Below, piece after piece: positions 58,743 to 60,619 of a DNA stretch of 64,000 nucleotides; positions within the stretch are counted from its first letter, which is position 1, and each line of letters opens with the position of its first letter. Where the stretch lies: assembly GCF_004135205.1 (NCBI RefSeq), contig NZ_CP035490.1:4693644-4757643 (forward strand), written 5' to 3'. The notes beneath the pieces were generated by a model, which did no database searches, had not been told where the DNA came from, and saw only the letters and a program-made list of their open reading frames with translations. The stretch is from Hahella sp. KA22 (GTDB taxonomy: Bacteria > Pseudomonadota > Gammaproteobacteria > Pseudomonadales > Oleiphilaceae). The translations under genes and the position numbers were made by a program.

Positions 58743-58835
58743 ATGTACATCAGCGCAAAAAAGCTGGCGGGTCTGGTTGCGTTTAATGCGTTAGGGTTAA
58801 CTCTGACGTTAGTTTTGGCGAATCAAATACTTTAA
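58743..58835 (+). CDS. Small membrane protein of 30 residues
   Basis: A short frame of 30 codons. A near-perfect ribosome-binding site (GAGGAGAG) stands 4-6 nt before the ATG. The peptide starts MYISAKKLAG, then has one hydrophobic helix (LVAFNALGLTLTLVLANQIL) with a positive N-terminus, so it should sit in the inner membrane with its N-terminus inside. An AT-rich promoter-like stretch lies just upstream. It ends without overlap with any other gene. No relative is known to me. Its size explains why standard gene finders would miss it. Confidence 0.65.
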   Translation: MYISAKKLAGLVAFNALGLTLTLVLANQIL

Positions 58836-58861
58836 TCACCTCTTACTTGAATAATTAGCCA

Positions 58862-58901
58862 CGTCCCGGTTTGCTGTCCGGGACGGCTGCTTGACGTCCC
58901 G
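58862..58901 (+). promoter_or_regulatory. Switching hairpins behind the small ORF
   Basis: CGTCCCGG (58862-58869), CCGGGACG (58878-58885) and CGTCCCG (58895-58901). The middle segment can pair perfectly with either the left or the right one. No T-tract follows. Confidence 0.5.
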
Positions 58902-58937
58902 AATCTATTGAGGACGCCCCCTCTCCTACTACTTATC

Positions 58938-59420
58938 TCATTCTAGCCACTCCGCACTCAACTGAATTGCTTCGCCAGCGGGTATATCTTTAATCTGGCT
59001 GTGGATCTGACCTGTTATAGAAAAGTGAACCTCTATATCCATCAGTTCAAAGTTTTCCGCCGCATAGTCGCCGCCCAAGACGGGCAGTTTCTTGAAGCTG
59101 TACAACATCCCAGGTTTTAACACAAAGCCTTCTTCCTTGAGCTGCGCGACAGTAGCCGCCAAAAAGCACTCATTAACCAGGTTCGTATCTCGCAATTTGT
59201 TACGAAAGTCCTCGTAGGAGTCCGCAACTTTCTCATAGCTCCCATCGCCTGTGGATAACAAGAATATCTCGCCGTTTCGTTCCTGGAGGTAGGCGTCGCC
59301 CGTGGAAGAAAGCAAAATAGGCTGCGCTGCATCCCCCACTAACCAACGCCAATCACTTATGAGGCCGTCCTTATCAAGACGCTCAATATTTACCGTCAGA
59401 TCATTCCAGGTTATCGACAT
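58938..59420 (-). CDS. DUF1851 (T6SS immunity protein Tdi1-like) protein
   Basis: 160 residues. The C-terminal two thirds match the DUF1851/Tdi1 family: DAYLQERNGEIFLLSTGDGS, then FKKLPVLGGDYAAENFELMD and FSITGQIHSQIKDIPAG. Tdi1 neutralises the T6SS effector Tde1 in Agrobacterium. No effector, VgrG or T6SS gene is nearby, and the gene is alone on its strand, so it could be an orphan immunity gene or have another job. AGAAG lies before the ATG. No signal peptide. Confidence 0.8.
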   Translation of the reverse strand: MSITWNDLTVNIERLDKDGLISDWRWLVGDAAQPILLSSTGDAYLQERNGEIFLLSTGDGSYEKVADSYEDFRNKLRDTNLVNECFLAATVAQLKEEGFVLKPGMLYSFKKLPVLGGDYAAENFELMDIEVHFSITGQIHSQIKDIPAGEAIQLSAEWLE

Positions 59421-59510
59421 ATGACTTCTTTCTATTATTGTGGGTTTGGTTACAAGTCTTTACAGTTAAACATGCAGACACACCTAATCCAAATGGACTA
59501 TACTAAGCTT

Positions 59511-59579
59511 ACGGTGGTGATAAACCCTTGCAGAAGCAGCCACCGACCGAATTAGGAGGCCTTGAACGCCTCCTTTTTT
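59511..59579 (+). ncRNA. Candidate small RNA A
   Basis: A -10 box TATACT (59499-59504) with a weak -35 CAGACA 18 nt ahead would start RNA near 59511. The transcript would open with hairpin CGGTGG/CCACCG (59512-59517 and 59540-59545), inside it CTT/AAG around a GCAG loop, and end in a strong terminator AGGAGGC/GCCTCCT (59554-59560, 59568-59574) with six Ts. No open frame. About 69 nt. Confidence 0.6.
59554..59579 (+). terminator. Rho-independent terminator of candidate sRNA A
   Basis: 7-bp stem AGGAGGC/GCCTCCT, 7-nt loop, T-run 59574-59579. No plus-strand gene ends within 700 nt upstream. Confidence 0.85.
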
Positions 59580-59724
59580 CTTTTTAGCGTTTTATCCCCC
59601 CCTCATCGTCTTATCAAGCCTGAGTCATTAGAAGTGTTGGCGCGCAGTCACATCTCATCACATCCAGGCATAAAGTTGACTGTTTTCATGAGGCATTATT
59701 TTTTTCTTGGTCTACACTTTTTCT

Positions 59725-59795
59725 CGTAGTGACACAGACCTGTTGTGTCAACAGCTTAGAATCAATCTTGGGAGGCCTCTTGGCCTCCTTTTTTT
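59725..59795 (+). ncRNA. Candidate small RNA B
   Basis: A second unit about 215 nt from the first. A possible -10 TACACT (59713-59718) precedes hairpin TGACACA/TGTGTCA (59730-59736, 59744-59750; loop GACCTGT), a 20-nt linker and a terminator GGAGGCC/GGCCTCC (59771-59777, 59782-59788) with seven Ts. The terminator stem resembles that of candidate A. The -35 box is unclear, and TTGACT at 59676 is an alternative promoter element. The start is uncertain. Confidence 0.55.
59771..59795 (+). terminator. Rho-independent terminator of candidate sRNA B
   Basis: 7-bp stem GGAGGCC/GGCCTCC with loop TCTT and a run of seven Ts. Confidence 0.88.
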
Positions 59796-59890
59796 GTTTT
59801 CGTTCTTTAGATATAAGTCTTTATTATTTTTAGCACTATCAACAATTTGTTAGCCTACAGGCGTCTAATTTCTCTGCTACAAGGCGCTAG

Positions 59891-60619
59891 GTGATGACAC
59901 CCGAATATGATGTAAAGGAACTCGCCAGGGAGATGGAAGAGTGGAGCCCCAAGGAAGTGATGCGTAAAGCGTTGGAGCTTTACGACAATATCGCAATTTC
60001 GTTCAGCGGCGCAGAAGATGTGGTCCTGATAGAAATCGCCAGCAAGCTAAAGAAGAACATCCAGGTATTCACGCTGGATACCGGTCGCCTGCATCCCGAG
60101 ACCTATCGATTTATCGAAAAAGTACGCGATCACTACAATCTGCAAATTGAAACCCTATCCCCCAATGCGGAGGATGTGGAACGTCTGGTCAAGGAAAAGG
60201 GGCTTTTCAGCTTCTATAAAGACGGCCATTCCGAATGTTGCGGCGTTCGCAAAGTGGCGCCGTTACGGCGCAAGCTCGCTACTGTCGACGCCTGGATCAC
60301 CGGGCAAAGAAAAGACCAAAGCCCCAGCACACGTAATAAAGTGGCGTTAGTGGAAGAAGACGCCGCGTTTGGCGCGCCGGATCGTCCTTTGGTCAAGTTC
60401 AACCCTTTGGCGAACTGGACGTCGCAGGACGTATGGAACTATATCCGGATGTTCGATGTTCCATACAATGAGCTGCATACAAAAGGATTCATCAGTATCG
60501 GTTGCGAACCTTGCACGCGGGCTGTGCTACCTAATCAGCATGAGCGTGAAGGACGCTGGTGGTGGGAGGAATCCACCATCAAAGAATGCGGGCTACATGC
60601 AGGCAACCTCAAAAGCTGA
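59891..60619 (+). CDS. cysH: Assimilatory adenylylsulfate (APS) reductase CysH
   Basis: 242 residues (GTG 59891 or ATG 59894; AAGG lies 6-9 nt upstream). It reduces activated sulfate to sulfite with thioredoxin. Two cysteine pairs, Cys116-Cys117 (CCGVRK) and Cys205/Cys208 (CEPC), bind a 4Fe-4S cluster, so this is the APS-type enzyme as in Pseudomonas and not the PAPS-type of E. coli, which lacks the cluster. The catalytic cysteine is Cys233 in [13 protein letters not shown] is the nucleotide loop. It is convergent with cysB. Confidence 0.93.

Follow-up and report, generated by a model that had tools for sequence, protein, structure and literature searches.

Two candidate small RNA genes arranged in tandem between thrH and cysH in one clade of Hahella

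In the 64,000-nucleotide stretch of the Hahella sp. KA22 genome analysed here (the window), the plus strand before cysH carries two units, each consisting of a hairpin followed by a strong intrinsic terminator (Table 1). The GGAGGC starts of the two terminator stems lie 216 nt apart. No long plus-strand gene ends just before the units, the nearest candidate being a 30-codon ORF that ends at 58835. The first-pass annotation of this DNA had stated that no plus-strand gene ends within 700 nt upstream; this holds for long genes but was slightly off, as the 30-codon ORF ends ~675 nt before unit 1, with a minus-strand gene in between.

Table 1. Features of the cysH region, in window coordinates
Feature	Position	Strand	Description
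Small ORF MYISAKKLAGLVAFNALGLTLTLVLANQIL	58743-58835	+	30 codons, GAGGAGAG before start; in 4/4 unit-bearing genomes
Immunity-like gene	58938-59420	-	Pfam T6SS_Tdi1_C domain; orphan
Motif TACAAGTCTTTACAGTT	59451-59467	+	Upstream of unit 1; common to the stretch before cysH
Unit 1 putative promoter	59475-59504	+	CAGACA, 18 nt, TATACT (consensus scan)
Unit 1 small RNA (predicted)	59511-59580	+	~70 nt; start placed from the -10 box
Unit 1 first hairpin	59512-59545	+	7 bp outer stem; invariant 10-nt bulge GAUAAACCCU
Unit 1 intrinsic terminator	59554-59579	+	Stem 59554-59574 plus T-run
Unit 2 promoter block (putative)	59671-59722	+	TTGACT 59676-59681; -10-like TACACT 59713-59718
Unit 2 small RNA (predicted)	59723-59796	+	~74 nt; predicted start
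Unit 2 first hairpin	59730-59750	+	Centroid fold
Unit 2 intrinsic terminator	59770-59795	+	Stem 59770-59789 plus T-run
Putative cysH promoter	59812-59856	+	Downstream of both units; extended -10-like TGTTAGCCT at 59848-59856
cysH	start GTG 59891 or ATG 59894	+	PAPS reductase domain

Terminators were called strictly, requiring a stem of 6 bp or more, 5 or more G-C pairs in it, and at least 6 T in 8. The 470 nt from 59421 to 59890 contain two such sites on the plus strand and none on the minus strand, and the whole window contains four on each strand. When these 470 nt were dinucleotide-shuffled 1000 times, one site was found in a single shuffle and two sites in none; this result, together with the conservation described below, rules out chance terminators. 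A laxer terminator scan over 5 kb was at chance level (5 found, 4.8 expected) and it is for this reason that the strict stems and their conservation carry the weight. A consensus promoter scan over 5 kb was also at chance level (3 found, 4.7 expected). The predicted RNA of unit 1 folds at -25.6 kcal/mol (z -4.11), with 0 of 200 dinucleotide shuffles equally stable, and that of unit 2 has a z of -2.96 (1 of 200 shuffles equally stable); when unit 2 was folded from 59676 instead, z was -2.35 and 4 of 200 shuffles were equally stable. The stem pattern GGAGGC-N3-9-GCCTCCTTTT occurs at exactly two sites in the 6.96-Mb genome i.e. the two unit terminators. The strict scan, the folds and the exact stem pattern thus confirm the earlier description of two plus-strand hairpin-terminator units with nearly the same stem. 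The stem common to both may reflect a common origin of the terminators, the rest of the two units being unrelated.

The -10 box of unit 1 (TATACT at 59499-59504) lies right before its hairpin, as had been described from the first reading of the sequence, and the block that runs from the upstream motif to past this box is 90-97% identical in the four genomes that carry the units (see below). The promoter block of unit 2, which is 93-100% identical in the same genomes, is not among the hits of the consensus promoter scan; its TTGACT and TACACT are 31 nt apart, so they do not form a standard sigma-70 pair, and there is no well-placed -35. The -10 boxes read CTATACT and CTACACT, which we take to be a possible link to the sigma factor RpoS.

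Both units, with their promoter blocks, are found at the same place in four of seven Hahella genomes: the window's own (G000), G001, G002 and G005. All identity ranges given here refer to the six pairs that can be formed among these four related genomes. The RNA of unit 1 is 93-99% identical and that of unit 2 95-99%, compared with 64-85% at the fourfold-degenerate sites of cysH and 53-85% in the spacer. Unit 1 contains 50 consecutive columns that are invariant in all four genomes, and the changes in its RNA are confined to the terminator loop and the very 5' edge, so that the terminator stem and T-run are constant. In the terminator stem of unit 2 there is one compensatory change, from C-G to U-A, in G005. 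Covariation was seen in 1 of 24 pairs in unit 2 and 0 of 20 in unit 1, counts that are nearly uninformative given four related genomes and few changes. The picture of orphan small-RNA-like units with promoter blocks of their own is borne out by this comparison, as the RNAs and the blocks are conserved whereas the spacer is not, and the units have apparently been kept by purifying selection since they entered the clade.

The region between thrH and cysH differs in size between these genomes and others. Among 80 cysH loci, a thrH match was found in 45, always divergent from cysH and separated from it by a gap of 152-546 nt, and none of these 45 gaps, that of H. ganghwensis included, contains a strict plus-strand terminator; the remaining 35 loci, several of them cyanobacterial, had no thrH match. 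In the unit-bearing genomes the gap measures ~1.1 kb (G001 and G002) or ~1.4 kb (G000 and G005) and holds a conserved small ORF, a variable slot and the two units. Because the 45 other gaps are short and without such a terminator, the units seem to belong to an insertion specific to this clade, loss elsewhere being the alternative, and their position beside cysH may be accidental. The small ORF differs by one residue in G002. The variable slot is occupied by the immunity-like gene in G000 and by a copy that seems to be divided between two frames in G005, while G001 has at most a 27-residue trace of it (E 0.005) and G002 none; the gene at 58938-59420 had no PADLOC match. Three further observations concern this gap. 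The product of the small ORF resembles a small membrane protein, and the ORF gave no plasmid match. Just 3' of it, at 58862-58885 on the plus strand, all four genomes have a GC-rich inverted repeat (CGTCCCGG/CCGGGACG) without a T-run. In G002 a 100-nt stretch before unit 1 recurs in inverted orientation before cysI with 84% identity, in the manner of a dispersed repeat.

A wider search placed the units in the same four genomes. BLASTN over 58 genomes gave matches in five, of which four hold the region; the fifth (G041) has a short match to the terminator only (E 6e-4), 3' of an ORF judged by inspection to resemble glmS. Two models built from the sequences of these four genomes, R1 and R2, were run over 146 relatives and matched strongly only in G000, G001, G002 and G005. 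Weak matches at E up to 1 were obtained with R1 in 36 of the 146 genomes and with R2 in 56, the best outside the four genomes being at E 0.016 and 0.0017, respectively; six weak loci were re-scored with R1 and five with R2. In the alignments from other genera that were inspected (4 of 8 for R1, 3 of 6 for R2), the match is mainly to the terminator, and the 5' hairpins differ in length and sequence. The other three Hahella genomes (G003, G004 and G006) had no strong match under laxer filters (best E 0.11), and G003 is without a close cysH. The sequence had been called unfamiliar, and we agree: no Rfam family reached its gathering score in the window, and none was matched up to E 10 in 58850-60000. 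BLASTN of 58880-60000 against phages and of 59440-59830 against plasmids gave nothing, and a 26-nt exact pattern from unit 1 was not found in viral contigs. Among the literature matches listed, no title or abstract opening dealt with small RNAs from Hahella or from this locus.

We examined the units for coding potential and for pairing with neighbouring mRNAs. Unit 2 has no sign of coding, the sole ATG frame over its promoter being without its ATG in G002. Unit 1 contains an invariant 13-codon GTG frame, VVINPCRSSHRPN (59514-59555, plus strand), that ends at the terminator and has no evident ribosome-binding site; it is probably fortuitous, with a tiny peptide as the alternative. The 5' parts of the units were paired with seven neighbouring start regions (14 tests) and ranked against 81 start regions of the window, taken from a crude list of ORFs of at least 150 aa, some of them spurious. 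None of the seven stands out convincingly from this background: for units 1 and 2, respectively, cysH ranks 71 and 35, cysB 25 and 28, and thrH 14 and 19. Three pairs came closest to a signal: unit 2 with the small ORF (rank 9; at least matched by 3 of 100 shuffled RNAs), unit 1 with cysB (rank 25; by 2 of 100) and unit 2 with tauE (rank 28; by 8 of 100).

Starting from the computed structures, terminators, conservation and clade restriction, we infer transcription, insertion, Hfq use, base pairing and targets, and consider it likely that the units are two independent non-coding small RNA genes in tandem that act in trans on distant mRNAs. Each would be transcribed from its own promoter, with starts near 59511 and 59723, and each RNA would end at its own Rho-independent terminator, giving products of ~70 nt and ~74 nt. 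Both RNAs would form short duplexes with these mRNAs, probably with the help of Hfq, the gene for which is present in the genome; the pairing region would be the invariant bulge GAUAAACCCU in unit 1 and the linker between the hairpins in unit 2. The units would have entered one Hahella clade in a block between thrH and cysH and would then have been kept by purifying selection.

Strong terminators can also shield a promoter from read-through, and the conserved 30-codon plus-strand ORF lies upstream of the units in all four genomes, so the terminators might be insulators, or the 3' end of a transcript from that ORF (58743-58835). We regard this as very unlikely, because the conservation of the unit 1 promoter block does not extend into the preceding 100 nt (43-59% identity in five of the six pairs, 88% in G000/G005), the first hairpins show the same degree of conservation as the terminators in the four genomes, and there are two terminators, each of which has kept a promoter block of its own. 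It could also be proposed that unit 2, and perhaps unit 1, is a 5' leader attenuator of cysH that is read through under sulfur limitation; unit 2 immediately precedes cysH on the plus strand, and the order promoter, hairpin, terminator, gene is the anatomy of an attenuator. However, terminator 2 is separated from cysH by a conserved stretch that contains the extended -10-like TGTTAGCCT, the cysH promoter and leader being 96-100% identical in the four genomes. The element TGNTAGCCT likewise precedes cysH in H. ganghwensis, in G004 and at several Marinobacter loci, and no unit was found in H. ganghwensis or Marinobacter. The pattern TAGCCT/TAGCAT/TAGACT occurs in the 181 nt before the cysH match at 14 of 80 loci, a count that has no control set; ten of the 14 are H. 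ganghwensis or Marinobacter loci, with the pattern 44-79 nt before the match and reading TGNTAGCCT by eye in every case, and the other Marinobacter loci are without it. On these comparisons cysH is probably transcribed from a promoter of its own that lies 3' of both terminators, and this speaks against an attenuator. Moreover, G001 has ~70 nt more than the others between terminator 2 and the cysH promoter, so that the units are separable from cysH, and there was no Rfam riboswitch match in the window. We consider an attenuator quite unlikely, and two free-standing small RNA genes remain the preferred reading.

The units have also to be considered as a sulfur-responsive pair, in which CysB would switch on unit 1 together with cysH and unit 1 would tune the sulfur genes. 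The best 18-mer shared by the sequences upstream of unit 1 (59445-59462) and cysH (59806-59823) agrees at 15 of 18 nt, with 0 of 200 shuffles doing so, and the motif pattern occurs without mismatch only at 59451-59467 and 59812-59828 in the 6.96-Mb genome, although the pattern was written after both sites had been seen. Upstream of unit 1 the motif is kept in all four genomes, with one change. A LysR-type gene taken to be cysB adjoins cysH, and the shared motif suggests a common regulator for unit 1 and cysH, for which CysB is the obvious candidate; we treat this as a lead. The duplex of unit 1 with the cysB start region, which beats 98 of 100 shuffled RNAs, would fit the same scheme. However, when up to two mismatches are allowed the motif has 18 sites and a reversed control 27; cysH of H. 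ganghwensis is not preceded by the shared core GTCTTTA, and by eye no such motif was seen before cysD or cysI. The duplex ranks given above (25 of 81 for cysB with unit 1, 71 and 35 of 81 for cysH) also argue against it. TIGR00971, a sulfate-binding family, had no match in any of the six Hahella genomes searched. We think a sulfur-responsive pair unlikely. The suggestion in the first-pass annotation that the units could act on the sulfur genes next door was not upheld, as convincing duplex energies were lacking and the units resemble a clade-specific insertion. A more elaborate version, in which unit 1 is CysB-controlled and co-induced with cysH, and a two-promoter module, possibly with PrrH-like read-through (see below), adjusts the metabolism of one Hahella clade to limiting sulfur, seems to us quite improbable. 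The reading that we favour is still that of two small RNAs acting in trans on distant mRNAs.

Hfq-type small RNAs of enterobacteria and pseudomonads are ~70 nt long, with one 5' hairpin, a short linker and a GC-rich terminator with a T-run. The units resemble such generic trans-acting intergenic RNAs in all of these respects, but they have no Rfam match and are found only in one Hahella clade; to our knowledge, small RNAs in this part of the gammaproteobacteria have been little catalogued. PrrF1 and PrrF2, the tandem iron small RNAs of Pseudomonas aeruginosa, are likewise two units in tandem, the first of which has its own terminator. The PrrF RNAs are near-identical copies, for which Rfam holds a model, and are reportedly called tandem duplicates in the title of a 2004 study. 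In contrast, the units described here are not duplicates and are without an Rfam match. They had been likened to PrrF as tandem related small RNAs, but outside the terminators they are no more alike than shuffles: their 5' parts score 12, compared with a shuffle mean of 11 and with 215 of 500 shuffles reaching 12, and in the full-length RNAs the alignment is confined to the terminators. A PrrF-like duplication was therefore rejected. In P. aeruginosa, read-through of PrrF1/PrrF2 gives a long RNA, PrrH (PMC10597452), and read-through of the unit 1 terminator would similarly give a long RNA here. The finding leaves the general picture unchanged; it provides two well-bounded candidates, apparently recent and under selection, whose expression and targets are directly testable. 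The units are good candidates for small RNA genes of a known kind that are new by sequence.
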